The notes: generated by a model from the sequence alone, not told the origin. 64,000 nt of DNA from Planctomycetaceae bacterium (GCA_029243145.1 JAQWSQ010000017.1:1-64000), one strand, 5' to 3'. Counted from the stretch's first letter, positions 3,217 through 36,298 are shown. Numbers and translations: made by a program.

Positions 3217-4281
3217 CTAATCGATAAACGCAGTTTCCAGTGCTTTGCGACGGAATCCTCGAATTGCGTCGATCAATTCCAACATCGATTGGTAGCGATC
3301 TTCTTTGTCTTTCTGTAACGCTTTCATACAGATCTGGGAAAGCAGCAGTGGCACTTCCCGATCAGGTGCGATTTCGTGCAAGTCCGGAGGGACGACATTG
3401 ACGATATTGTGGAATGTGTCTTTGACGGTCTTCCCTCGCGAGGCATCTTGCAATGACAGCAACTCGTAGAGTACGACCCCCATACTATAAACATCAGTGC
3501 GTTCGTCGATCTCGGCCCCTTCCACTTGTTCGGGCGACATGTACAAAGGAGTTCCCGGGCGTTTTCCGGTGCCCGTCAAGCGATCAACTTCTTCTTCTGA
3601 ATTGATGCTGGGGATGTGTTGCTCTTGCGTGATTCGTTCGTCTTCCGCTTGAGGAATGTCCCAAACTTTGGCGACTCCCCAATCGAGCAACACAACCTCA
3701 CCGAAAAATCCGACCAAAATATTCGCCGGTTTGATGTCGCGGTGGACCACTCCATGCGCGTGGGCATAGGCCAGTGCATTGCAGACCTGGATCAGGACTC
3801 CGAGAACGCGCTCAAGGGTGTATGTCGCCTCGGCGTCCTTGTCTTTCTTTTGCAATAAATTGATGACTTCGCGAAGTGTTTCACCTTCGACTTTTTTCAT
3901 AGTGAAGTATAGTTTGCCTTCGACATCGACGCCGATATCGTAGACCGGCACAGTGTTGGGATGCTGAAGTTGTGCGGTCACGCGTGCTTCACGGACGAAT
4001 CGGCGACGTTCATATTCATCTTCGGCAATCGAGCGATGCAATGTCTTGAACGCGACATGTCGCGCCAGATTCTTGTCCAGACAACTATACAGCTCCGCTT
4101 TACCGCCTTTGGCCATCGGCTTGAAATTGGCGTAACGGGTGAATCCGTTGGAGAAATATTTGGGAAGTTGTTTGTCGGTTTCCGAAAGCGAAATTTTGGG
4201 ATAGTTATCCTGCTTTTGAAGCATGGGTATGTCGTCCGTTGACGGATGTGTGTGGGACTCTTCGTGTGGGCTGTCTGACAT
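3217..4281 (-). CDS. Hanks-type serine/threonine protein kinase
   Basis: A 354-residue eukaryotic-like kinase that transfers phosphate from ATP to Ser/Thr of protein targets. The glycine-rich loop region is around residues 57-62, the ATP-binding lysine is in VAFKT (Lys79), the catalytic loop HRDIKPAN has Asp182, and the activation segment ends at GTPLYMSPEQ (243-252). The usual DFG magnesium motif is DWG (200-202), a substitution common in planctomycete kinases. There is no transmembrane helix and no PASTA, WD40 or TPR extension, so it is predicted to be cytoplasmic. It is monocistronic. Its partners are unknown; FHA-domain proteins, the usual phosphothreonine readers, are encoded in the Tad locus 27 kb away, but no link is shown. 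Confidence 0.93.
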   Translation of the reverse strand: MSDSPHEESHTHPSTDDIPMLQKQDNYPKISLSETDKQLPKYFSNGFTRYANFKPMAKGGKAELYSCLDKNLARHVAFKTLHRSIAEDEYERRRFVREARVTAQLQHPNTVPVYDIGVDVEGKLYFTMKKVEGETLREVINLLQKKDKDAEATYTLERVLGVLIQVCNALAYAHAHGVVHRDIKPANILVGFFGEVVLLDWGVAKVWDIPQAEDERITQEQHIPSINSEEEVDRLTGTGKRPGTPLYMSPEQVEGAEIDERTDVYSMGVVLYELLSLQDASRGKTVKDTFHNIVNVVPPDLHEIAPDREVPLLLSQICMKALQKDKEDRYQSMLELIDAIRGFRRKALETAFID

Positions 4282-23425: not shown

Positions 23426-24535
23426 ATGGCGCGACAGTCGATTTTTGAATCGAGTCTCGATTACTTTCTAGCCCCCATTGGGGAATTTCTGCGAGACGAT
23501 GACGTGACCGAAATCATGGTCAACGGACATCAGGAAATTTATGTCGAGAAAAAAGGCAAGCTCTACGAAACCGACGCGGCATTTCTCAGCGAAGATGCAT
23601 TGCAGACGGCTGTCCACAACATCGCCCAGTATGTCGGGCGAGAGATTGATCGGGAACGTCCTATTATGGATGCTCGATTGCCGGATGGATCGCGCGTCCA
23701 CGCCGTCATTCCTCCCTCGGCTCGCGGCGGTACTTATCTCACCATCCGCAAATTTAAGCGTGATATTTTTGGTCTCGAAGATTATCTGCGATTGGGGAGT
23801 CTTTCCGAAGCGGCTGCCGAGTTTCTCGATATCTGCACCAAACTGAAGAAAAATATTTTGATCTCTGGCGGAACGGGAACGGGTAAAACGACTCTACTAA
23901 ATGCCATCTCGACATGCATTCCGGCTGAAGAACGCTTGGTGGTGATTGAAGACAGTTCCGAATTGAAACTGGGGCAGCCTCACTCTTTGTATCTGGAAGC
24001 GCAACAACGGGATTCCTCCGGTCGCGGGGAATTAACGATTCGGCAGTTGTTCAAAGCCTCCTTGAGAATGAGGCCCGACCGAATCATTGTGGGTGAAGTG
24101 CGGAGTGGTGAAGCGCTCGACATGGTGCAATCGATGATTAGTGGTCACGCCGGTAGTATGACGACCGTGCATGCCAACTCCGCTCACGATGCTCTGATTC
24201 GATTGGAAACACTCTCGTTAATGTCTGATGTGCAATTGCCTGTGTATGTGGCTCGCGCTCAGGTGGCATCGGCAATTCATCTGGTTGTTCAAATCACTCG
24301 CTTCTCAGAAGATGGTTCTCGTCGCATCACACGTATCACCGAGGTGACTGGCCTCGATTCGGACGAGCAATACACGTTTCAGGATCTGTTTGAGAATCAG
24401 ATGACGGGACGTGATGCCAAAGGAAATCTGAAAATGAGCTTGGAAATGACCGGCAATAAACCGTCATTTGCCAAGGAAGTCGTCGGTCATGGACTCGGAC
24501 ATTTGGTCAAAACTTCTGCCGACTTGTGGGGTTAG
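23426..24535 (+). CDS. cpaF: CpaF/TadA-type secretion ATPase (stand-alone)
   Basis: A 369-residue ATPase of the type II/IV secretion family that powers Tad/Flp pilus assembly from the cytoplasmic face. Visible elements: N-terminal EIMVNGHQEIYVEKKGKL, DARLPDGSRVHAVIPP, LTIRKF, Walker A GGTGTGKT (148-155), VVIEDSSELKL (Walker-B/Asp-box region), RMRPDRIIVGEVRSGEALDMVQSM and MTTVHANS (His box). It lacks the long N-terminal region found in many CpaF proteins. The ATG at 23426 is preferred: the open frame continues upstream to 23300 but that part is made of REP hairpins. A 202-base gap separates it from the pilin genes. A second CpaF is encoded at 31.5 kb. Confidence 0.93.
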   Translation: MARQSIFESSLDYFLAPIGEFLRDDDVTEIMVNGHQEIYVEKKGKLYETDAAFLSEDALQTAVHNIAQYVGREIDRERPIMDARLPDGSRVHAVIPPSARGGTYLTIRKFKRDIFGLEDYLRLGSLSEAAAEFLDICTKLKKNILISGGTGTGKTTLLNAISTCIPAEERLVVIEDSSELKLGQPHSLYLEAQQRDSSGRGELTIRQLFKASLRMRPDRIIVGEVRSGEALDMVQSMISGHAGSMTTVHANSAHDALIRLETLSLMSDVQLPVYVARAQVASAIHLVVQITRFSEDGSRRITRITEVTGLDSDEQYTFQDLFENQMTGRDAKGNLKMSLEMTGNKPSFAKEVVGHGLGHLVKTSADLWG

Positions 24536-24552
24536 AGTCTTTATCGAGACTC
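24535..24552 (+). other. Hairpin overlapping the end of cpaF
   Basis: Perfect six-base stem GAGTCT / AGACTC with loop TTATCG, starting on the last base of the stop codon. There is no T tract, so it may stabilise or attenuate the transcript ahead of the pilin genes rather than terminate it. Confidence 0.35.
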
Positions 24553-24737
24553 AACCTCGAGAGAATCGAATATTGGTCGGTGGGTCTGGATGAGATATAA
24601 GTCATAGTCCTGAAAGAGGTTAGGGATAAAATATTTGGGTGATTGATCTCGAAAAATGAAGTGCGAGGAGGGGATTTTTTCGCGTCAAACGCCGATAAAC
24701 TGCTTATACTGGCTGATGCGGGCCCGTAGGAGTCATC

Positions 24738-24926
24738 ATGCAGAAAAGACATCAGCAATGCTCGAAGGAATCAGTCATTCGTCGTCGAGGCGTTGCTTCG
24801 GCGGAGTATATTCTGGTTGTTTCGACACTATGTGTTGGCGGAGGAGCGATCATGCTCTGGAGCATGGATCTCATGCAATCTGCCTACGAGTTGATCGCTG
24901 GTTGGGTCTCTTGGCCTTTCCTGTAA
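24738..24926 (+). CDS. Flp-type (type IVb) pilin
   Basis: A 62-residue protein that fits the Flp pilin pattern: a basic leader MQKRHQQCSKESVIRRRG, then VASAEYILVVSTLCVGGGAIMLW. The Gly before the hydrophobic segment followed by Glu and Tyr at mature positions 5 and 6 is the diagnostic G/XXXXEY site cut by the A24 peptidase encoded 330 bases downstream. The mature pilin would be about 44 residues, typical of Flp subunits that form thin bundled adhesive pili. The ATG is preceded by TAGGAG at good spacing. Confidence 0.85.
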   Translation: MQKRHQQCSKESVIRRRGVASAEYILVVSTLCVGGGAIMLWSMDLMQSAYELIAGWVSWPFL

Positions 24927-24999
24927 CTCACATCAGTCCTATAAATTATCCAAAACAAAACATCCTGCGGTCTCGCCGCATCCAGAGGAGTCAATTGCC

Positions 25000-25221
25000 A
25001 TGACAGGCCTGCAACCTTTGCGAAAGCTACTGAAGCGAATTCACAATGACGAACGAGGAGCCGTGACCCTCGAAACAGTTCTCATCGTTGGTGCAGTCGC
25101 CATTCCGATTCTAATTTTCATCATTAATTATGTGATGCCAAAAATTCAAGAACAGTTCGATGACAATATCGGTGACTTGGATGTTGATGCGGATAATTTT
25201 TCCAATCAACAGGTTCCGTAA
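25000..25221 (+). CDS. Second small Flp/TadE-like prepilin
   Basis: A 73-residue protein with a leader ending in NDERG, then AVTLETVLIVGAVAIPILIFIINYV. Glu lies at mature position 5, with Thr in place of the usual Tyr at 6, and a charged C-terminal tail follows. It is probably a minor or alternative pilin processed by the same peptidase. The ATG at 25000 has GAGGAG ten bases upstream. It lies 73 bases after the first pilin and 35 before the peptidase gene in one transcription unit. Confidence 0.75.
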   Translation: MTGLQPLRKLLKRIHNDERGAVTLETVLIVGAVAIPILIFIINYVMPKIQEQFDDNIGDLDVDADNFSNQQVP

Positions 25222-25256
25222 GTTCACAGACATTCGGATGAGCGGATTTCCGAGAT

Positions 25257-25802
25257 ATGGATTTGTCGCCGCGTGCTGTCTGTTTGCTGGGGCTGTTGCT
25301 CGTGGCAACTTATACGGACCTCAAAGACCAAAAAATTTACAATGAGACCACCTATCCCGGAATGCTGCTGGGATTGATACTTTCCGCGGCGTTTGCGGGC
25401 TGGCCGGGAGTCCAACATTCTCTAGCCGGTTTTTTGGTTTGCGGCACGGTGATGGTAGTTTGTTTCCTGTTGTTTGATGTCGGAGGAGGAGACGTCAAGC
25501 TGATCGCTATGATGGGGGCTTTTTTGGGAGTTCAAGAGGGCATCGAAGCGATGCTGTGGACTTTCATTTTAGGGAGCATCATGGGGATTGCGATTCTGAT
25601 CTGGAAATTTGGAATTGCTCATTTGATGAAAAAAACAATCGAACACCTATGGCTGGTGTTTAGAGCCAAAGGGTGGATCAAGCCGACGGAGGAAGAGAGA
25701 GAGCCGTTACAACGCTGGTTGTTTCTGGCGCCTGCCGCATTAGCAGCGGTGATGATTGTCTTGTCAAAATCGTGGTTAGCCGAACGAGGAATTCTTTATT
25801 AG
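25257..25802 (+). CDS. A24-family prepilin peptidase, TadV/CpaA-like
   Basis: A 181-residue membrane aspartic peptidase with about five or six helices. The two catalytic aspartates of the A24 family are visible in TYTDLKDQKI (Asp in the first cytosolic loop) and in FDVGGGDVKLIAMMGAFLG (the GxGD-type motif). It lacks the N-terminal methylase domain of PilD enzymes, which is normal for CpaA/TadV. It should cleave the leaders of the Flp pilin and of the TadE-like proteins around it. It follows the second pilin by 35 bases. Confidence 0.92.
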   Translation: MDLSPRAVCLLGLLLVATYTDLKDQKIYNETTYPGMLLGLILSAAFAGWPGVQHSLAGFLVCGTVMVVCFLLFDVGGGDVKLIAMMGAFLGVQEGIEAMLWTFILGSIMGIAILIWKFGIAHLMKKTIEHLWLVFRAKGWIKPTEEEREPLQRWLFLAPAALAAVMIVLSKSWLAERGILY

Positions 25803-25836
25803 CCGAAATGTGATTTAGCGATAAGAGCCACTTGTT

Positions 25837-26925
25837 ATGCATCGTCAGATTCTCGAAGCCTGCCTACCGATTGCGATCATTTTGGTCGTTGCGTGCGGGT
25901 TGTTGAATCTGACCATCAAACTGAGTCGGGCCTCGTGGGATTGGAAGCGGTTCAAGAAACTGCACCGTGATCAATCCGGGGGAGTGCAGTCGCTAGCGAT
26001 GGTGCTGACTTTACCGATCTTTATGGCGATCATCTGCATGATCGTGCAACTGAGCCAACTGATGATCGGGATGATGGGCGTGCATTATGCGGCCTATGCG
26101 GGAGCACGTTCTGCATCAGTCTGGTTACCCGCTCATACGTATTCCGCCAGTCCCGGTTACGAAGAAACTCCCAATCATGTCGTCATCGACAACATGTCGT
26201 ATCAGCTCGAACCGGCCACCGATCAGATACGTGGAGTTCTGGGACCGAGTTCGTTGTCTCTCAGTACGAAGTATCGCAAAGTTTGGACGGCCTCAGTGTT
26301 GGGAGTGGCACCGTTCTGTCCTTCGCTGATGACCGAGGACCAGACAGGAGTACAATCGATCTCTTCGGCGTGGTTGACGCCCGAGGCCGAGACCCTCATG
26401 AGTGATATCAATAATATCACTCTACGATTCTGGATGAACCACATCGACAATGTGAATCAGACGACTCTCGATACCAGGGTCAGTCGAAAAATTGAGTGGG
26501 CGAAAGACAACACGCTCGTCTTTGTGGAATGGCGTGATGCTCAGCGGTCCGAAGGACGACGCCATCACGTGATGCAAGGCCCCACTTACAATCCTTGGGA
26601 TTTCTACGACAGGAATGGCATCCTTGTGATCCCTTACGAAGAAAATGAAGTCGGCTGGCAAGATCCTGTCACGGTTCACGTTTATCACCGTTTCGGCTTG
26701 ATGCCGGGACTCGGAGCGCTCTTACGAAAAGTTCAACGCTCTTGGTCGTTTGAAGACCGGCATAATCAATCCTTCTTGATTTCCAATGGGGCTTGGGATG
26801 CATTTATGGACCAAGGGAGTGAAGACAATCGTCGTTTACCGGGCGTCTTCGTCATTCATGCTTCGGCGACCATGAACAATGATGGCTTGATCCCCATCTA
26901 CGGGGAGGTGATCGATGAGTATTGA
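25837..26925 (+). CDS. TadE/TadG-like pseudopilin
   Basis: A 362-residue protein with an N-terminal helix, then a second prepilin-like segment: KLHRDQSG followed by GVQSLAMVLTLPIFMAIICMIVQLSQLMIGM and YAAYAGARSASVW. The latter, a Tyr/Ala-rich helix continuation, is the typical TadE/TadG opening. The Glu at position 5 expected of true pilins is Leu here. The bulk is a periplasmic beta-rich domain of about 250 residues. It overlaps the next gene by 11 bases. Probably a minor pilin-like component of the Tad apparatus. Confidence 0.75.
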   Translation: MHRQILEACLPIAIILVVACGLLNLTIKLSRASWDWKRFKKLHRDQSGGVQSLAMVLTLPIFMAIICMIVQLSQLMIGMMGVHYAAYAGARSASVWLPAHTYSASPGYEETPNHVVIDNMSYQLEPATDQIRGVLGPSSLSLSTKYRKVWTASVLGVAPFCPSLMTEDQTGVQSISSAWLTPEAETLMSDINNITLRFWMNHIDNVNQTTLDTRVSRKIEWAKDNTLVFVEWRDAQRSEGRRHHVMQGPTYNPWDFYDRNGILVIPYEENEVGWQDPVTVHVYHRFGLMPGLGALLRKVQRSWSFEDRHNQSFLISNGAWDAFMDQGSEDNRRLPGVFVIHASATMNNDGLIPIYGEVIDEY

Positions 26926-28615
26926 TCGTTCTTTCCTGTCGCGAGTACATCCTCAACATTTGGCACTGCGTCTGCATCGTGACGAACGTGGCGCGTTGAG
27001 TGTGATGGGAGTCTTTACCATTTTTATGTTGACGGTCTTGCTGGGCATGATCTTCAATATGGGGAAGCAGATTGACGACAAGCTACGCATGCAGAACGCC
27101 GCCGATGCGGTGACGTACAGCGGAACGCGAACCGTCACACGTGGCATGAACGCGATTTCCTATTCCAATCATCTCTTGTGTGAAATTTTTGCACTGACCG
27201 CCTACATGCGCGAAGCGCGGCTCGAACCGAACTCGACGCAGCTTCCCGACTCCACCCTCGTCGCCGAGGATGTGCTCGATGTTTGGGAAGAAATTGCCCA
27301 AGAAGCCTTTATTGCTGAAGGTGGCGCAGCGGGACTCGAAAAGTTTGAAGCCTTGGGACAGGCCATTCTGGCCAAGGTTCCACTGGAGCGTCAGGTGGTG
27401 CGCAGTTTTGAACCGCTGGCGAGAGAGCATTCCCGGTTGACGTTATCGGTCTTCGAGTACATTCTTCGCGGCCCCGATGTCGCGTACTCTGTGCCGGTGG
27501 AAAATGATGCCTATCCGCAAGACGCTCTTGAGGGTGGCCTGATCACCGAATTTCAGCGTAGTGTGGTCATTAACACCCCGCAACTCGCGCAGTGGGTCGT
27601 GGAAGAAGTCGTCGAACGACACGCCACCGGGCACGATCGACTACATGCCGGACATCAACCAGTGGCCGTCATGTATCGGAGCGATGGAGTGCGACTCGAT
27701 TCTTCTCAAGCCTATGAAACAGATCGAGTGACGCGCACCTTGCCCGTCATTGACCCGACGGCAGTGGGGGGCGATGTTCGTGGGATCGATATCGGATTCA
27801 ATCCGCAGTTACCTTACCGACTTGATGACCTCTCGCTCGATCAACGCTATTTCAAACTTTCTTACGACACTCGATCAGCACTTTCACGACAGTATCTACA
27901 GCAATTGATCTTCAACTGGATGGATATTTATTTCACCGAACGTCGTTCAGACGGCACAACGGGTTTGTTTGGTCGCGACCGAGCGAGCCTGTCCCAGTTG
28001 GCAAATTTCTGGCGAATTTTCACTTGTGCCCAACTCAACAAACTGCTGCAGGAAGAATTTCCTCGTTCAAATATGCCGTTCTTGATCCGCAGCGAAAATC
28101 TGGATGGTTGGCGGTACGATCCCAGCTCGGCCAATGCGAATGGGACGATTAGCAACTTTCATAACAATGTCTGGTTCGATCCGAGAAGCACCACCGATCC
28201 TCACAGTCCAGAGTTGCATGACGAGTATCACTTGGTGGGTATTGTTGCTTGGACTCCCATCGAACATTTTGCACCCCAATTTTACGATCATCCGCTCACC
28301 GGGCATTATCCAATCACATTTTCAGAAGCGAAGTTTTTCTTGCCATACCGATTATTGAACTATCCTTGGATTGTCGAAGGAGAAGATCGTTATGGTGTTG
28401 ATTGGTCGTATACCAACACGAACGGTTGGCCTTCGAGTCAGCGGGATTGGTCGATGATGAATCAGAACTGGCGAACCAAATTGGTTCCAGCCTCGGCTGA
28501 CAATCTTGTCGAGATATTGCAGACGCATGTCGGTCCCGGTTATACGGGTAATCTTGAGGCTCCTAATTTGTCCGGAATATCGGTGCAAGACATTCGCAAA
28601 CTCAATTCTCACTAA
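26915..28615 (+). CDS. TadG-like Flp pilus assembly protein
   Basis: A 566-residue protein starting with a cytoplasmic stretch of about 24 residues, DERG, and the helix ALSVMGVFTIFMLTVLLGMIFNMG, followed by KLRMQNAADAVTYSGT. The QNAADAAALAA-like continuation after the first helix is diagnostic of TadG (pilus-assembly Flp-type) proteins. There is no Glu at position 5. A large exported domain follows, ending in a Trp/Tyr/Asn-rich region. It overlaps the preceding TadE-like gene by 11 bases and is translationally coupled. Confidence 0.78.
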   Translation: MSIDRSFLSRVHPQHLALRLHRDERGALSVMGVFTIFMLTVLLGMIFNMGKQIDDKLRMQNAADAVTYSGTRTVTRGMNAISYSNHLLCEIFALTAYMREARLEPNSTQLPDSTLVAEDVLDVWEEIAQEAFIAEGGAAGLEKFEALGQAILAKVPLERQVVRSFEPLAREHSRLTLSVFEYILRGPDVAYSVPVENDAYPQDALEGGLITEFQRSVVINTPQLAQWVVEEVVERHATGHDRLHAGHQPVAVMYRSDGVRLDSSQAYETDRVTRTLPVIDPTAVGGDVRGIDIGFNPQLPYRLDDLSLDQRYFKLSYDTRSALSRQYLQQLIFNWMDIYFTERRSDGTTGLFGRDRASLSQLANFWRIFTCAQLNKLLQEEFPRSNMPFLIRSENLDGWRYDPSSANANGTISNFHNNVWFDPRSTTDPHSPELHDEYHLVGIVAWTPIEHFAPQFYDHPLTGHYPITFSEAKFFLPYRLLNYPWIVEGEDRYGVDWSYTNTNGWPSSQRDWSMMNQNWRTKLVPASADNLVEILQTHVGPGYTGNLEAPNLSGISVQDIRKLNSH

Positions 28616-28655
28616 TTCCCATCCTGTAAGACGACTCTCACTAACCGGTCAATCA

Positions 28656-29759
28656 ATGAAACAATTGATCCAACAAACAACACGACCTGCCAAACACCCA
28701 CGCAACGGATTTGCGCCGATGGAGCTGGTGCTGCTGGCCCCGTTTTTAGTGTTTATGGCAGCGTTGATGATCTGTTTTTCCGATGTATCGTTGTTCAAGA
28801 TTCGCGCACAAGGCAATGTGCATTATGCGGCCACACAAACAGAACCGTTTCGAGCATCGAGCTTTGCTCTCGGCAATCAGCAATTGAACCCTCAACCACA
28901 AAGCTGGCCAACAGCGGGGACCATCGGTTCTAACAACACGCAAGCACTACAGAATGTGAACAACTTCTGGAATCAACCCGGTTTTCCTAGCTCAGATGCC
29001 TTACAAGGAAATTCTGGCTCTGGTCGCATCACGACTTTAACCAATCATTATGAACAGCGGACCGATGTCGGTAAAAGCTTCATGGTTGATCGTGATTTTC
29101 AGCTCGATGAAGGAATGCGGGAAGGGCGAGTGGCGATTCAGCGAACCTATCCAATGTTACAACGGATTTTACCCAACAATGGCCGATACAGTATCGATCA
29201 TGATTATGAATTTCTGGAAGGGGATTGGAATTACGGCAATGTCGGTTTGCAACGAAACTCCCCCACCAACAATGGGAATGTTCGGACCGAACAATGGCGT
29301 GCCAACGATTTGTATCACATTCACCCGACTGAGATGCCACAACTGTTTGGCTATTGGTCCGACTTTATGAATGCGTTTAATGCGCTTCGAGCACTCAATA
29401 ACAAACTCGATACGAGTGTTCCGAATGCCGATGACCTTGATGCGCTCGATGCGGATATCGAATGGACCTGGTATCGCCCCGGTTGGCCTCCCAACTTTCA
29501 CCCGCATCCCTCGGGTTGCGAAATCGATCTCCAAGATTATTTGGCATCGAATGCCTACCCTTCTTATCTGCGAAATGTTCGTCGTGTTCCAGGACGAATG
29601 TGTCGAGCTTGGCAGGGCGTTTATGGTCGGGAACTCAGAAATCGACAAAATATTCCCAACTATGTCCCGATGGGGCCACTCAGTGACCAGCAATTACAGG
29701 ACAAGCTCGATCAACTCGACGTCTTTGAACAGGGTTTGCGCAACAAAGGTTACTGGTGA
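28656..29759 (+). CDS. TadE-like pseudopilin
   Basis: A 367-residue protein with a leader MKQLIQQTTRPAKHPRNG followed by FAPMELVLLAPFLVFMAALMICFSD. Glu sits at mature position 5, so unlike its two upstream relatives it keeps the full prepilin cleavage signature. The periplasmic domain of about 300 residues is rich in Asn, Trp and Pro. The ATG at 28656 defines this leader exactly; upstream in-frame starts lie inside the end of the previous gene. Third pseudopilin-like protein in the operon, probably part of the pilus base or tip. Confidence 0.75.
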   Translation: MKQLIQQTTRPAKHPRNGFAPMELVLLAPFLVFMAALMICFSDVSLFKIRAQGNVHYAATQTEPFRASSFALGNQQLNPQPQSWPTAGTIGSNNTQALQNVNNFWNQPGFPSSDALQGNSGSGRITTLTNHYEQRTDVGKSFMVDRDFQLDEGMREGRVAIQRTYPMLQRILPNNGRYSIDHDYEFLEGDWNYGNVGLQRNSPTNNGNVRTEQWRANDLYHIHPTEMPQLFGYWSDFMNAFNALRALNNKLDTSVPNADDLDALDADIEWTWYRPGWPPNFHPHPSGCEIDLQDYLASNAYPSYLRNVRRVPGRMCRAWQGVYGRELRNRQNIPNYVPMGPLSDQQLQDKLDQLDVFEQGLRNKGYW

Positions 29760-30730
29760 TTTTACCGGTATCGTCCACGATGAGTGAACCGTCTCCCGAA
29801 GAGCCAGAAAAGTCTGCTCCCGAAAAAACGCTCGGTCAGCGTTTGTTCTCACGCATCAATGACCTGATAGCGATCAGTATCATTTTATTTGCCGGCATCA
29901 GCATGGGGGGGGCGGTGATCGACTGGTGGAACACTTCCCCCGAAGACGCTCACACACCCAATTTGCGGGCTGCCGCAGATGATGTCATGCCTCCTGATTT
30001 TCTTTCCGGGGCACCTATCTTGATTGATGCCGGTGATTTGAATGTGCGCATGGAGCGAAGCGAGTTAGAGGGATCGTCGTCCCAAATTCACACGCAAATG
30101 ATTGAGAGACTATCGGGATATGCTGCCAGCGTTTCTTTACCGGCTCAACCACCCGGCGAAGAGGAGTTGAGTATGCTACAAGAACTGGAGAGGCAGCAGC
30201 CGGTTTGGTCGGATGAGAAGGGGGCGGCCGTTTTTCATCAGGACGCTCCATTGGGAGCTTATGTGGCCGTCCAAAAGAATTCTCCAGAACTGCAAAAAGC
30301 GGGTCAATTTTCGGGCAGACGTGTGGTAAGCTGGGGGTTCGTTATTCCATCAGGAGAGTCCCGATGGACGGCTTGGTTGTTTGCTCCTCGTCCGGGAGGA
30401 GATTCGCCCGTTTCAACGGATTGGCGATCTGTCCTTCCTTCCGGAGCGATTTGCAATTTGGGGCTGCACTCGCAGGACGGTCAACTGATGTTGGCGTTCT
30501 CGGGAACGGGGTCACTTGATCAATGGCAGCGGGAATTTGGGCAATTGCTCGAATCGAAAAAATTTCAACAAATGGGAACGTGGATTGATCAGGAGACGCG
30601 CACTTCTGCAGAGTTTGAATTAACACGCGCTGTCTATCGACAACAACTCACACTACACATACAAGACGAAACACGCGGACGATTACGGGGATTGATGCAC
30701 GTAACCCGACCGCGCGAGGAGACTCCATGA
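29756..30730 (+). CDS. Tad-locus membrane protein of unknown function
   Basis: A 324-residue protein with a cytoplasmic N-terminus, one membrane helix at about residues 41-60 (IAISIILFAGISMGGAVI), and a soluble domain of roughly 260 residues outside. I do not recognise a family. The GTG at 29756 overlaps the stop of the preceding gene and has AAAGG upstream; an ATG at 29780 is an equally possible start eight codons later. Its stop overlaps the start of the CpaB gene (ATGA, 30727-30730), so it is firmly embedded in the Tad operon. A structural or regulatory role in pilus assembly is inferred from position only. Confidence 0.65.
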   Translation: MILPVSSTMSEPSPEEPEKSAPEKTLGQRLFSRINDLIAISIILFAGISMGGAVIDWWNTSPEDAHTPNLRAAADDVMPPDFLSGAPILIDAGDLNVRMERSELEGSSSQIHTQMIERLSGYAASVSLPAQPPGEEELSMLQELERQQPVWSDEKGAAVFHQDAPLGAYVAVQKNSPELQKAGQFSGRRVVSWGFVIPSGESRWTAWLFAPRPGGDSPVSTDWRSVLPSGAICNLGLHSQDGQLMLAFSGTGSLDQWQREFGQLLESKKFQQMGTWIDQETRTSAEFELTRAVYRQQLTLHIQDETRGRLRGLMHVTRPREETP

Positions 30731-31467
30731 GAGGACTACCAGGACTGTTAATTGCCGTAGGGCTCGGTATCGTCGGTGCCATTTGCAATTGGTACTACTT
30801 ATCGCGGCAAGCGTCGCAGATGGAAAAAGTCGCCTTCGTGATTTTGAATGGTGATGCCCAACTCAACCTGGGGGATCGATTTCGAGACGACCACCTGACC
30901 AAGGTGGAACTTCCCAGTAATAACCTCGGTAACTTACAAGAGGTTGGCATCTTATGGCGCGAGAAAGCTTCAATCATCGGGTTGGCTGCGACGAAAGCCT
31001 ACCGGGGAAACGAAATTCTGTTGTGGCAAGATCTCCAAACTCCCAGCGAACGGGATTTCAGCGAGCTACTCGCCGTTAATGAAGTCGCACGGTGGGTTCC
31101 AGTGGATAGTAGATCGTTTATCCCGGAACGGGTCAGTCCCGGAAATCTAATCTCGTTCCTCTTCCCCAGAACGTCGGCTACTCCCACGCCGGGGAATTCC
31201 AACAATCCTTCTCTACAAACCGCAGGTTCCACCATTATTGGTCCTTTTCGCATTCTTTCATTGGGAGCTCGAACGGGAGATCGCGATCCACGTCAAGCCT
31301 ATACGCGATCAACAGGGCAGGAGAATTTGATCGGGATCAGCGTCAAAGTGACCGAGGGATCGTTGGATCCTGAAGCCGAAAAACTGTTCCAAATTCTCGG
31401 TAATAACACCGCCCCTCCAGGTGTGATACTGCATTCGGCCGAACTGGAGGATCAACCTCTCCGATGA
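30727..31467 (+). CDS. CpaB/RcpC-like Flp pilus assembly protein
   Basis: A 246-residue protein with an N-terminal membrane helix (GLPGLLIAVGLGIVGAICNWYYL) and a SAF-like domain: LNLGDRFRDDHLTKVELP, AATKAYRGNEILLWQDL and the central RWVPVDSRSFIPERVSPGN, where CpaB proteins usually have AVTVxVDxxxGVAGxVxPGD. CpaB anchors or stabilises the outer-membrane secretin in the periplasm. No secretin gene is in the window. It overlaps both neighbours by four bases, indicating tight translational coupling. Confidence 0.75.
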   Translation: MRGLPGLLIAVGLGIVGAICNWYYLSRQASQMEKVAFVILNGDAQLNLGDRFRDDHLTKVELPSNNLGNLQEVGILWREKASIIGLAATKAYRGNEILLWQDLQTPSERDFSELLAVNEVARWVPVDSRSFIPERVSPGNLISFLFPRTSATPTPGNSNNPSLQTAGSTIIGPFRILSLGARTGDRDPRQAYTRSTGQENLIGISVKVTEGSLDPEAEKLFQILGNNTAPPGVILHSAELEDQPLR

Positions 31468-33413
31468 AGATTTGGTACAACAAAATTCACGAAAGTCGAC
31501 GCGCGCTGTTGGAAACCGAAGAAGAGGTGGTCCATATCGGTCGCGATGCTGCAAACTTGCTGGTGCTCAAGAGCCCGCTGGTTGCGAAACGGCAAGCCAT
31601 CGTCCGCTATGCTGACGGCAAACTTACCATCGAGAATGTCGGCTTGAATAGCTGCATGGTGGGCGAGCGGGAATTGATCGGAGGCGAACAGGCTGAAGTC
31701 CCCGCTGGCGAAACACTACGCATCTGGCCTTACACGTTGACGTTCGAGATGGAGCACGCGGCTCCTATTAGCCGGACCGAGATGGAATCGCATTTGCGGA
31801 CGGTGATGGCCGACCTGGAACTGCGCGTCCATCGCAAATTACTCGAACGCTTTGATGTCTACGAACTCGATGCCAGCCGCATGGGAGACGATGAGAGTAT
31901 TCTCATGCTGGAACGAAATATCGAAGATGTCTGTCGAGAGATGAAACTTTTCGACGAGGGAAATCATGCCTTGCTCGAAGAAGTGATCGGCCTGGTTCTG
32001 CGTGACCTGGTCATCAATCAGATGATCCTCGAGAGTGATCGAGAAGAACGAAGTGCGGTTGCCGGCTTAACCTATAATGAGTTTGATGTCCCGGCAACGC
32101 TTGTTCCCGAACGTGAAACCGAACTCGCGAATTTGCTGATGTTCGCACGAGAGCGTATGGAACTCGACTCACAACCGGATCTCTCCGCACAAATCAATCG
32201 GGTCGAAGCAAAATTCAATCAGATATTCCCGCTGCTGCGACCTCATTTGCACCAAGAACTCAAACGATACATCGTCTTGCGGACCTTGAAAAAGGATCTG
32301 AAAGATACTGTCTTCGGTTACGGTCCACTGCAAGATCTGTTGCGTGCTCCTACGATCTCTGAAATCATGGTGGTGCAGAGTGACCAGATTTATGTCGAAC
32401 GAGCCGGGGTCATCGAACTATCGGGACGACGATTTATCTCTGACAAAGTAACCGAGTCCATTATCGAGCGGATTGTCGCCCAAGTAGGACGCCGTATCGA
32501 TAAGTCACAACCACTGGTTGATGCCCGACTCGCCGATGGCTCCCGTGTGAATGCCATCATTCCACCTTTGGCAGTTCGTGGTCCGTGTTTGACGATTCGA
32601 AAATTCCCCGTTCATCGTTTTTCGATGGACGACCTGATCGAGATGGGTAGCATTACATCTCCCGCGGCAATGTTTTTACGAGCCTGCGTCATCAATCGTC
32701 GCAATTTACTGGTCAGCGGGGGTACTGGGACCGGTAAAACGACGATGTTGAATGTGTTGTCCAGTTTTGTTCCACATCGCGACCGCATCATCACGATTGA
32801 AGACACGACCGAACTGCAACTGCATCAGGAGCATGTCGTCACCCTCGAAACCAAGCCCGCCAATGTCGAAGGGACGGGTGAATACTCCATTCGAGATCTC
32901 GTGAAAAACGCGCTGCGCATGCGACCCGACCGTGTGATCGTCGGGGAATGTCGTGGTGGTGAAGCCCTCGATATGTTACAGGCCATGAATACGGGGCATG
33001 ACGGTTCCATGACCACCATTCATGCCAACAATACAGACGATGTTCTCAAACGGTTGGAAGTGCTCGTGTTGATGGCCGTCGACCTGCCGGTCTCATCGAT
33101 TCAACGTCAGATTGCTTCGGCCATCGATCTCGTCGTGCAGATTACACGCCTTCCCGGCGGGAAACGAACCGTCACTCAAATTTCAGAAGTCCTCGGTTAT
33201 GATGCCGACCGTAAAGAACTGACCATCATTGATATCTTCAATTACCGTGATGGCGTGAGTTTGAGACCAACCGGATATTTGCCGAGTTATATCGACGAGT
33301 TGATGGATAGAGAACTGCTCAAACTCGAGTTCCTGTACGGCAATGAGGAAGAAGAAGATCAGAACGGAAAATCTGCTCCGAAAGAGTCCTCTTCTGAAGT
33401 GGGAGCCGACTAA
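31464..33413 (+). CDS. cpaF: CpaF-type ATPase with N-terminal FHA domain
   Basis: A 649-residue protein. Residues 1-95 form an FHA-like domain (VVHIGRDAANLLVLKSPLVAKRQAIVRY, LNSCMVGEREL), then a helical region to about 290, and a CpaF ATPase domain: EIMVVQSDQIYVER, DARLADGSRVNAIIPP, LTIRKFPV, Walker A GGTGTGKT near residue 420, ITIEDTTELQL, RMRPDRVIVGECRGGEALDMLQAM and MTTIHANN. The C-terminus is acidic and low complexity. It powers pilus polymerisation; the FHA domain suggests recognition of a phosphothreonine partner or docking. It overlaps cpaB by four bases and tadB by one. Confidence 0.93.
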   Translation: MKIWYNKIHESRRALLETEEEVVHIGRDAANLLVLKSPLVAKRQAIVRYADGKLTIENVGLNSCMVGERELIGGEQAEVPAGETLRIWPYTLTFEMEHAAPISRTEMESHLRTVMADLELRVHRKLLERFDVYELDASRMGDDESILMLERNIEDVCREMKLFDEGNHALLEEVIGLVLRDLVINQMILESDREERSAVAGLTYNEFDVPATLVPERETELANLLMFARERMELDSQPDLSAQINRVEAKFNQIFPLLRPHLHQELKRYIVLRTLKKDLKDTVFGYGPLQDLLRAPTISEIMVVQSDQIYVERAGVIELSGRRFISDKVTESIIERIVAQVGRRIDKSQPLVDARLADGSRVNAIIPPLAVRGPCLTIRKFPVHRFSMDDLIEMGSITSPAAMFLRACVINRRNLLVSGGTGTGKTTMLNVLSSFVPHRDRIITIEDTTELQLHQEHVVTLETKPANVEGTGEYSIRDLVKNALRMRPDRVIVGECRGGEALDMLQAMNTGHDGSMTTIHANNTDDVLKRLEVLVLMAVDLPVSSIQRQIASAIDLVVQITRLPGGKRTVTQISEVLGYDADRKELTIIDIFNYRDGVSLRPTGYLPSYIDELMDRELLKLEFLYGNEEEEDQNGKSAPKESSSEVGAD

Positions 33414-34264
33414 TGGTTCCGCTAGAAGTGTTAATGGGTTCGGGATTCATCGGCGCTGGCTTGGCAATCATGGCGTGGGCCGGCGCTGATATTTGGGGGT
33501 CAGGACTAGACTACTTAGAACAAGATTTTCAGGCGAAATTTCGACGATTGCGCGTTCGGGTGAAGCGTCTGCGAACGATTATTCTCTCTTGGCTGGCAAT
33601 GGTGGGCGTGTTTTTTGCCAGTCTGTGGATTTTTCTTAATCTCCCCGTGTTGGGATTTGTGGCGGCGGTGATTGTGTTTTGTCTGCCTTGGTATCTGGTA
33701 CGTCGGATGGCACGGCGACGAAAAGAAAAAATTGAAGATCAACTCGCCGACTCGATGGTCTCGATGGCGAGTGCGATTCAAGCGGGCCTCTCTTTAGCAC
33801 AATCGTTGGAGATCTTGGCAGAGCAATCGCCACACCCGATCTCTCAAGAGTTTCAGCAAATGATGACTGAGTACCAACTCGGGAAAACACTCGATGAAGT
33901 GCTCGAAGAAACCAAAGAGCGATTGGAGAGCGAAAACTTTGCGTTGTTTTCTGCGGCGATGCAAGCCAGTCGCGCCAGCGGAGGACGACTGAATGATGTG
34001 ATCGAGCGAATCGCAGTTTCCATTCGTGAGATGCAAAGACTCGAAAGAAAAGTCGAAGCAGAAACCGCGCAGGCTCGGTCGTCGGCTGTTTATATGGCTT
34101 TGGCGCCGTTTGCGATTCTCGCCATGTATTACTTTTTCGTGGACCCCGTCAGCACCACTCGCTTGTTTACCACGTTGGTGGGCCAGCTCATTTTGAGCAT
34201 GGCGTTGGTGCTCGATGTGGTCGCCTATCTGTGGGCGCGAAGAATTCTCAATCCCGATATTTGA
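33413..34264 (+). CDS. tadB: TadB-like inner membrane platform protein
   Basis: A 283-residue T2SSF-domain protein. Membrane helices lie near residues 6-26, 60-95, 225-245 and 255-280; the cytoplasmic F domain holds MASAIQAGLSLAQSLEILAEQ, YQLGKTLDEVLEETKERL and ASRASGGRLNDVIERIA. TadB with TadC forms the inner-membrane platform on which the ATPase acts. The ATG shares one base with the stop of the ATPase gene (TAATG), indicating coupled translation. Confidence 0.92.
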   Translation: MVPLEVLMGSGFIGAGLAIMAWAGADIWGSGLDYLEQDFQAKFRRLRVRVKRLRTIILSWLAMVGVFFASLWIFLNLPVLGFVAAVIVFCLPWYLVRRMARRRKEKIEDQLADSMVSMASAIQAGLSLAQSLEILAEQSPHPISQEFQQMMTEYQLGKTLDEVLEETKERLESENFALFSAAMQASRASGGRLNDVIERIAVSIREMQRLERKVEAETAQARSSAVYMALAPFAILAMYYFFVDPVSTTRLFTTLVGQLILSMALVLDVVAYLWARRILNPDI

Positions 34265-34288
34265 ACTCAATCACAAAGTCAATATTTG

Positions 34289-35245
34289 ATGTCATTCCTC
34301 CTTTCCAATCATTCCTTGTTGGCAGTCACTCCCGGCGACCAGCTCTGGTTATTGATCGGTTGTTTGTTGATGGGGTTGGGGATCTTCTTGGGGTCGAGAA
34401 CCTTGCTGGTCTCGATGGCCAGTGATGATCTCGAACAGGACGACGATTGGCGATATGATGTCTCGCGGATCAATGAATTGCGTAGAGCCAGTGTCATGTA
34501 TCGTGTGTTTCAGCCTGTCATTCAGCTTCTGGCGACGCCTTGTCGAAACTTGTTTCGTGAGGGATTGCCAGAAATTCATCGTGAAATTCAGTGCTCGGGT
34601 ATGAGTCGGTTCTGGACGGCAGAAGAGTATCTGGCCCGAAACATTGTCATCAGCGTGTTGATGTTTCCTGTTTACTATTATGCCAATACGAACATGATGG
34701 GCTCTCCGGGGATTTTTCTCGCGTTCGTCATGACAATGTTGACGACTGTGGTATTGCGGCGGCAATTGACGATGCGAGCCATTTATCGATTGTTGCTGAT
34801 CAAACGACGGTTACCGTATTTTTTGGACCTGATCACTTTGCTGATGGAAGCGGGTTCCGCGTTTATGCAATCTTTGGAACAAGCAGTCCGTGAGTTTTCG
34901 GAGCATCCGGTGGGTGTGGAATTTTCCCGCGTGATGACCGAAATGCGAATGGGTAAAAACCGGACCGCCGCATTTGAAGCCATGCGCGAGCGTTTACAGG
35001 ATGATGAAATCACCAGTCTGCTGGGATCGATCATTCAAGGGGAAGAACTCGGGACGCCTTTAGCCAAGCTGTTTCGATCCCAAGCCGATGTCTTACGATT
35101 AAAGCGTTCTCAACGTGCTGAAACTTTGGCGAACGAAGCGGGTGTGAAAATGTTGCTGCCAGCCGTTTTGGTGATGATGTCAACGGTATTGATTATTCTC
35201 GGCCCGTTCGTGTTAAACTTCATTTTAGGAACAATGACTCTCTAG
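34289..35245 (+). CDS. tadC: TadC-like inner membrane platform protein
   Basis: A 318-residue T2SSF-domain protein, second half of the Tad platform. The F domain has FLDLITLLMEAGSAFMQSLEQAV, MTEMRMGKNRTAAFEAMRERL and GSIIQGEELGTPLAKLFRSQ; membrane helices flank it, with a C-terminal pair ending FVLNFILG. The ATG at 34289 is preferred over an adjacent TTG at 34286. It starts 24 bases after tadB ends. Confidence 0.92.
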   Translation: MSFLLSNHSLLAVTPGDQLWLLIGCLLMGLGIFLGSRTLLVSMASDDLEQDDDWRYDVSRINELRRASVMYRVFQPVIQLLATPCRNLFREGLPEIHREIQCSGMSRFWTAEEYLARNIVISVLMFPVYYYANTNMMGSPGIFLAFVMTMLTTVVLRRQLTMRAIYRLLLIKRRLPYFLDLITLLMEAGSAFMQSLEQAVREFSEHPVGVEFSRVMTEMRMGKNRTAAFEAMRERLQDDEITSLLGSIIQGEELGTPLAKLFRSQADVLRLKRSQRAETLANEAGVKMLLPAVLVMMSTVLIILGPFVLNFILGTMTL

Positions 35246-35305
35246 CCAACTGTAGCTCTCTCACCAACTGAAGACAGATACGTCATTCCACTAACGGAGT
35301 TCTCA

Positions 35306-36298
35306 GTGTCGGAAGCAAAAACGGCTCCTCAACTTGCCAAACTACATTTTCGAAAAGGCCCCGAAAAAGGGAAGACGTTCGAGGTGCGCGATGAGCTTGT
35401 CCACATCGGTCGGGGAGAAGAATCAAACTTCCGCTTGCGTGCCAAAGATCTTCAGGATTACGAACTGAGTATTGTTCTGCGGAACAATCGGTACGCAATC
35501 TATGCAGCACGTGGCGACATGATCAGCGTCGAGGGGAATTATTTGCCTCCCGAGAAATGGGTCTGGTTACCCGAAGACGCCACCGTATTAATTGGTGACA
35601 AAACCGAATTCCAATTTGAAGTTCAAATGGATGCCGCTGACGCGGAACCACGTTCAGGTCGTCCGGTTGGTAAAGCCGCTCAACCGAAGCAAACCAAAAG
35701 TGTCCAGATGAAAGGGACGCCTCTCCCCGCAAAAGCTCGCAACTCCAAAGGCAATGCGGAGGATCGCAAATCGGGTCAACCAAAAGGGCGGCAACGAAAT
35801 GTCGCGAAGTTCATCACCGATCAAGTCGGAGACCCACTCGTTCAACTCGGTGAAGATGGTCACCTTCCCGAATTGTATCTCGAAGAGATTGATGGTGGTC
35901 CGCAAAAGAAGAAAAACGGCAAACAAAAAGAGCAGAAATCCGAAGCGAATCCGTTGCTGGTCGGGATTGCTCTCGGTTTCAGTGTGCTCTCTTCGTTATT
36001 GTTATTGCTGATGTCTCCCGCCGGTTCAGGGTCTGCTTCTCTCGATAAAACATCGGCCCGCAGCGAAATACGACAGTATTACGGCGGAGAAAATGAAGAC
36101 CTCGAAGCCTATCAATTGTTGTTACGTGAAGCAGCATTGTCACGCTCTCGCGGAGATTATCGAGACGAAAGAGATTATTATCGTCGCGTGCTGCAAATGT
36201 TGGTTTCCGAAGATAATCAGGGTTTGATACGCTTAACGGACACCCGTGAAGGTGACGAGAAATTACGAGATCTACTCTCGGTCTTACTCGCGGATTGA
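35306..36298 (+). CDS. Bitopic FHA-domain protein at the end of the Tad operon
   Basis: A 330-residue protein. Residues 10-110 form an FHA domain (LVHIGRGEESNFRLRAKDLQDYELSIVLRN); the Gly-Arg before the loop is kept, but the usual SRxH motif is replaced by DYELSI, so phosphothreonine binding is uncertain. A basic linker rich in Lys/Gln/Gly follows, then one membrane helix at about 211-234 and a periplasmic helical segment with a TPR-like look. The start is GTG with CGGAG upstream. It lies 60 bases after tadC and its end overlaps the convergent transporter gene by 15 bases. Confidence 0.75.
   Translation: MSEAKTAPQLAKLHFRKGPEKGKTFEVRDELVHIGRGEESNFRLRAKDLQDYELSIVLRNNRYAIYAARGDMISVEGNYLPPEKWVWLPEDATVLIGDKTEFQFEVQMDAADAEPRSGRPVGKAAQPKQTKSVQMKGTPLPAKARNSKGNAEDRKSGQPKGRQRNVAKFITDQVGDPLVQLGEDGHLPELYLEEIDGGPQKKKNGKQKEQKSEANPLLVGIALGFSVLSSLLLLLMSPAGSGSASLDKTSARSEIRQYYGGENEDLEAYQLLLREAALSRSRGDYRDERDYYRRVLQMLVSEDNQGLIRLTDTREGDEKLRDLLSVLLAD

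Follow-up and report, generated by a model that had tools for sequence, protein, structure and literature searches.

Tad pili serve as the model for type IV filaments with a single motor, and it is an open question by what means a single ATPase changes direction and for what reason other filaments require a pair. Only single-motor systems have been described for the CpaF branch of these ATPases (PMC12019362, PMC6711533). For the Kil system of Myxococcus xanthus and relatives, one ATPase and the short secretin KilC are described, and its stated range is limited to predatory δ-proteobacteria (PMC8460266). We analyzed a 64,000-nucleotide stretch of DNA from a Planctomycetaceae bacterium (G000:C231:1-64000, here called the window; source genome of 5.2 Mb, 97.6% complete, 232 contigs) that encodes a Tad/Flp system with two CpaF-type ATPases, a short one (F1) and one fused to an FHA domain (F2). 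Both lie in one operon of 13 genes on the + strand, at positions 23426-36298. The original prediction, made from the DNA sequence, had listed these genes with correct coordinates, except for one, here called X, that it did not name. This system is a Tad variant that lacks two usual features of Tad, namely a single motor and a CpaC secretin. The set of F1, F2, and an additional FHA protein, with no outer-membrane pore dedicated to it and usually with a partner kinase, recurs across the Planctomycetota. A literature search, with subscription papers and preprints outside its scope, found no description of a two-motor Tad system.

Distribution and ancestry of the two ATPases

We surveyed 170 genomes from the order of the source genome. 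F1 orthologs are encoded in 60 of them and full-length F2 orthologs (66-98% identity) in about 54. A divergent class of F2 (42-51% identity) is found in further genomes, and some genomes carry both classes. The two ATPases are encoded together in 54 genomes, while six have only F1, four only F2, and 106 neither (Fisher's test, P=2e-32). Counted by genus, the pair is present in 33, F1 alone in one, F2 alone in three, and neither in 21. Within the variable genera g5, g6, g50, g51, g53, and g54, F1 and F2 are gained or lost jointly. The two genes can be megabases apart in finished chromosomes, at 2.08 versus 4.01 Mb in G088 and 1.32 versus 5.46 Mb in G089, and are also unlinked in the G005 and G090 chromosomes. 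Their co-occurrence is therefore not mere linkage and, as it holds despite this separation, membership of F1 and F2 in one system is well supported.

The identical whole operon with F1 as its first gene is found in the genus of the source genome, g14, and g35. F1 is also the first gene in loci of the divergent F2 class. Operons in which F1 comes first and F2 is linked to it also occur elsewhere in the phylum, in further families, orders or classes (L307-L312), as well as in one Pirellulaceae genome (L155) and at L159, which is deltaproteobacterial. In many other genera the operon has F2 without F1, or F2 is relocated, and F1 is solitary elsewhere. In three Myxococcota loci (L161, L162, and L171) a relative of F1 is encoded downstream of an FHA-CpaF. 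Unlike the window with its single TadB/TadC pair, two Arthrobacter loci with two CpaFs (L209 and L214) encode two complete motor-platform sets. FHA-CpaF fusions are also encoded in Burkholderiales, Lentisphaerota, Kiritimatiellae, Verrucomicrobiota, and Pseudomonas (L207, L182, L226, L191, L204, L172, L170, and L165), and no F1-like second ATPase was found in the examined flanks of these eight loci.

Among NCBIfam models both ATPases fit TIGR03819 (TadA/CpaF) best, F1 with 268 and F2 with 324 bits against a cut-off of 373. In a maximum likelihood tree of 68 ATPases, F1 forms its own clade (97/94), common to Planctomycetota and Myxococcota and outside every sampled CpaF. The F2 clade (100/100) is placed among the CpaFs, and F2 and the remaining CpaFs split off from F1 and TrbB (99/96). 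A second tree of 92 rows, with VirB11 included, agrees. As F1 is a separate clade, it is not a recent duplicate of F2.

The catalytic residues are retained in F1, including the Walker A K/T, the Asp-box and Walker B E, and those of the His-box. The pore-loop N and E are replaced in F1 (98-100% and 97-100% conserved, respectively, in CpaFs and F2), and the loop-8 R206 is mostly replaced. In CpaF, these pore-loop and loop-8 positions were modelled as contacts to the platform proteins CpaG and CpaH (PMC12019362). F1 begins at the N-terminal domain, with both the three-helix bundle and the FHA extension absent. These features would fit a dedicated second motor while leaving the direction of its action undecided. 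By analogy, a short F1 beside a long F2 resembles PilT beside PilB.

Secretins and a partner kinase

No secretin is encoded in the locus of the window or in any linked planctomycete copy, as judged with a local secretin profile that does recover secretins already known, among them the CpaC of the Polyangiaceae locus L162. The original prediction had noted no secretin in this one operon; the absence extends to all the linked copies and is not a quirk of a single genome, nor does a secretin lie just outside the locus. A search of the 97.6%-complete source genome found three secretin-domain proteins, one of the type II secretion system/type IV pilus (T2SS/T4P) type (C181) and two that are very long, none with the CpaC N-domain. 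The two long proteins (1426-1576 amino acids; L028:5517-10247 on C54 and L027:9426-13706 on C150) are of obscure function, and the one on C54 has an N-terminal BlaR1/M56 peptidase domain in Pfam. The source genome also has a dispersed canonical Tad set, with CpaF-TadB-TadC at L025:5775-9080 (C158) and TadV, a pilin, and two TadE at L033:3235-5603 (C113). No CpaC was found with either part.

The absence of CpaC from a single metagenome-assembled genome is insufficient as proof. Both other genomes of the genus have CpaC matches, in G051 beside a second canonical CpaF (C84) and in G052 at a contig end (C46). The argument is therefore based on the co-occurrence counts together with g58 and G163. 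The CpaC N-domain was found in 155 of the 170 genomes and a canonical CpaF in 153. CpaC tracks the canonical CpaF (149 genomes with both, six with CpaC only, four with CpaF only, and 11 with neither; P=2e-10) but shows no such association with F2 (P=0.58). Four genomes (G163, G167, G168, and G169) encode F1 and F2 while CpaC and canonical CpaF are both absent; their remaining secretin-domain proteins include large ones of the T2SS/T4P type and others of 1400-1600 amino acids. That such genomes exist, and that CpaC does not track F2, indicates that the system is independent of the CpaC secretin.

A secretin hidden in the operon or beside an unlinked F1 was also considered, and the one weak candidate (L132:9667-10704, 345 amino acids) was rejected, as it scored 15.5 against a Pfam cut-off of 27.5 bits and the other F1 loci lack a counterpart. 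For TadZ/CpaE, PF16968 gave no match above cut-off in the 170 genomes, with a model that also missed the Caulobacter control. In the Myxococcota locus L162, a CpaC gene immediately precedes that of the FHA-CpaF, so a pair of motors does not always go without a secretin.

A large Ser/Thr kinase is encoded directly 3' of the terminal FHA gene in seven planctomycete loci. In other classes the kinase gene is within the operon (L309 and L308, the L308 copy overlapping both neighbors) or after the FHA gene (L311 and L315), with the kinase domain confirmed by Pfam. A full-length ortholog of the kinase is encoded in 20 of the 21 tested genomes with F2 and in none of the 17 without (P=6e-10). The source genome has this ortholog unlinked to the operon, at G000:C64:45590-48214 (L301:1447-4149, minus strand), with 900 amino acids and an intact kinase domain. 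The sole tested F2 genome lacking the ortholog, G150, is of the divergent class and has directly upstream of F1 an open reading frame that is kinase-like by motif only. From the FHA domains, regulation by threonine phosphorylation had been suggested, and the kinase gene in or beside the operon of relatives and the ortholog that tracks F2 lend this real support. With both, phospho-control read by the FHA domains is the most economical explanation, and we infer that the kinase and FHA proteins act together in control of the pilus. The literature search found no kinase-linked Tad pilus. A caspase-like C-terminal half of the kinase, seen by eye, had no Pfam support and is not claimed. The window encodes a second Ser/Thr protein kinase (354 amino acids, 3217-4281), 19 kb upstream and with no sign of an operon link.

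Gene content of the operon

The 13 genes are all on the + strand. F1 (23426..24535, 369 amino acids; PF00437, E=7e-57) is a short stand-alone CpaF-like ATPase, and the only wider gap of the operon, 202 nt, separates it from flpA. From the prepilins to the operon end, intergenic distances range from -11 to +73 nt. The small Flp-type prepilins flpA (24738..24926, 62 amino acids, RRRG^VASAEYILVV) and flpB (25000..25221, 73 amino acids, ERG^AVTLETVLIV) were assigned by sequence and by homologs in relatives, those of flpB with 44-62% identity. They are followed by the TadV/CpaA prepilin peptidase (25257..25802; PF01478, E=8.5e-17), a TadE-like pseudopilin (25837..26925; PF07811, E=1e-4, 22.8 against a cut-off of 22.9 and above cut-off in another scan), and a TadG-like protein (26915..28615; PF13400 (Tad/TadG), E=2.8e-5). 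The next gene (28653..29759) probably codes for a third TadE-like protein, without a Pfam match, assigned to TadE/G by a class-III-like N-terminus alone (NG^FAPMELVLL); relatives encode weak homologs in the corresponding place.

X (29756..30730) is a conserved unannotated protein with a single transmembrane helix. It has no credible Pfam or NCBIfam match, yet both the protein and the position of its gene are conserved in distant two-motor loci, with profile matches in L092/L093, L312/L315, and the deltaproteobacterial two-motor locus L159 (E=8e-4). Its AlphaFold2 structure from three sequences had a pLDDT of 38 and was not used. The following gene (30727..31467) is CpaB/RcpC-like, with a weak TIGR03177 match below cut-off (28.9 bits), the size and position of CpaB, and homologs of 24-44% identity outside the genus. 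F2 (31464..33413, 649 amino acids) has an N-terminal FHA domain (PF00498, E=4e-6) and the ATPase domain (PF00437, E=5e-59). The platform is split into TadB (33413..34264; E=7e-22) and TadC (34286..35245; E=1e-16), each with one T2SSF domain (PF00482). The terminal FHA-like protein (35306..36298) has one transmembrane helix and a weak match to the FHA-fold family Yop-YscD_cpl; it aligns with those of relatives, where its gene is kept as the last pilus gene. TadV, TadE, Tad/TadG, TadB, and TadC were thus supported as originally predicted, with CpaB and the last FHA protein resting on weak matches and the third TadE/G protein on its N-terminus.

Overlaps of 4 nt join the third TadE-like gene to X, X to CpaB, and CpaB to F2, and F2 overlaps TadB by 1 nt. 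These overlaps suggest that translation of F2 is coupled to that of CpaB and TadB. In a promoter and terminator scan, the number of sites was not above that of shuffles.

Proposed use of two motors on one platform and comparison with known systems

We favor, with somewhat better than even confidence, a two-motor Tad variant with F2 as a phospho-regulated assembly motor and F1 as a second, probably retraction, motor. This would be a Tad-branch type IV filament machine in which two dedicated motors share a single TadB/TadC platform. F2, with canonical platform contacts and the N-terminal region retained, would drive assembly. F1, which belongs to a separate, ancient lineage, lacks the N-terminal extension, and has altered platform-contact loops, would most likely drive retraction, as PilT does beside PilB. 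Switching between motors would most likely be set through Ser/Thr phosphorylation by a dedicated kinase, whose gene is unlinked in the source genome and, in relatives, lies within or next to the operon; F2 and the terminal FHA protein would read the phosphorylation through their FHA domains. Without its own CpaC, the filament may pass through another outer-membrane structure or a T2SS/T4P secretin, or may be retained in the periplasm. The data establish the genes present, their ancestry, the co-occurrence of F1, F2, and the kinase, and the absence of a linked secretin, and from these we infer the direction of each motor and the exit route.

It is unlikely that F1 instead forms mixed hexamers with F2 or works in the same direction as a PilU-like helper, boosting force or processivity with no reversal. 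F1 does retain its catalytic motifs and the core of the N-terminal domain, heterohexamers have been discussed for type IV filament ATPases, and PilU retraction requires PilT (PMC6711533). The high divergence of F1 and F2, and the loss from F1 of the three-helix bundle and pore-loop residues, favor separate homohexamers. We give still less credence to F1 being another secretion or regulatory ATPase, similar to VirB11 or TrbB, that acts beside the pilus and is not a filament motor. Its scores for VirB11 (238 bits, cut-off 249.95) and TrbB (227, cut-off 305) are near the TadA level (268, cut-off 373). We rejected F1 as a member of either family, as both scores are under the family cut-offs and the trees place F1 apart from TrbB (with splits of 99/96 and 97/94). 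It is also the first gene in the pilus operon of distant taxa and co-occurs with F2.

That F1 serves the other Tad set of the genome, which has its own CpaF, making two pilus systems, is highly improbable. A canonical CpaF is present in 153 of the 170 genomes versus F1 in 60, and g58 and G163 encode F1 and F2 without one; the idea was rejected on this co-occurrence. The second pilus offered in the original prediction is likewise disfavored, as the operon has one platform pair and F1 co-occurs with F2, not with the other CpaF. A further alternative touches the exit route only. A secretin encoded elsewhere, such as the T2SS/T4P type on C181, could provide a shared channel for a diderm Tad. This is possible though somewhat doubtful: genomes without CpaC still carry large T2SS/T4P-type or other secretin-domain proteins, but no linked planctomycete copy includes a secretin, and the secretins of Tad systems group in a separate clade, with exchanges among systems being few (PMC6668835).

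Several points weigh against the two-motor reading. Caulobacter CpaF alone drives both directions, and a second motor is in principle unnecessary. Pili, ATPase activity, and retraction are here predicted from genes. The Fisher tests on genome counts ignore shared ancestry, a problem softened by the genus counts, and the 38 genomes of the kinase test (21 with F2, 17 without) were hand-picked. The ten genomes with only F1 or only F2 are partly incomplete, but four of them (G023, G101, G011, and G142) are more than 90% complete. The kinases of other classes differ in their C-terminal parts and could have been recruited in parallel instead of being a single ortholog.

Tentatively, and giving it rather less than an even chance, we propose that the F1 lineage may date back as far as the radiation of bacterial CpaFs, within the archaeal-derived Tad branch, and that with the FHA-CpaF it would make a kinase-switched two-motor pilus that functions in a diderm with no secretin of its own, paralleling PilB/PilT independently. 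As a naturally occurring Tad with two motors and a kinase that matches it across genomes, the system offers named genes, residues in the pore loop and loop 8, and a candidate switch. Planctomycetes have pili-like fibers of 12 and 6 nm at crateriform structures, for which genes were unnamed (PMC5394234). A link between these fibers and the Tad variant is speculation; if true, the system would be a lead to them and to CpaC-free export of Tad fibers in a diderm.

Like the Caulobacter crescentus Tad/Flp system (type IVc; CpaA-CpaH), the window encodes TadV/CpaA, a candidate CpaB-like protein, CpaF, TadB/TadC, Flp-type pilins, and TadE/G-like proteins. Unlike Caulobacter with its one bifunctional CpaF (PMC12019362), it has two motors and FHA proteins, its operon lacks CpaC, and CpaE was unmatched by an insensitive model. 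It shares with M. xanthus Kil (PMC8460266) an FHA-fused CpaF (KilF), extra FHA proteins, and a Tad-like platform, and differs in being planctomycetal, with a second ATPase clade and X, and without a secretin. Similar to PilB/PilT(/PilU) of type IVa pili, a long and a short motor are present with one platform, and the short one has no N-terminal extension; F1 and F2 are of another ATPase subfamily, with the split within the CpaF branch. A Ser/Thr kinase and FHA proteins encoded with an envelope machine are also found in kinase-FHA-controlled type VI secretion systems and kinase-linked type VII secretion system variants (PMC11217815), whereas the kinase-FHA set described here belongs to a type IV filament system.

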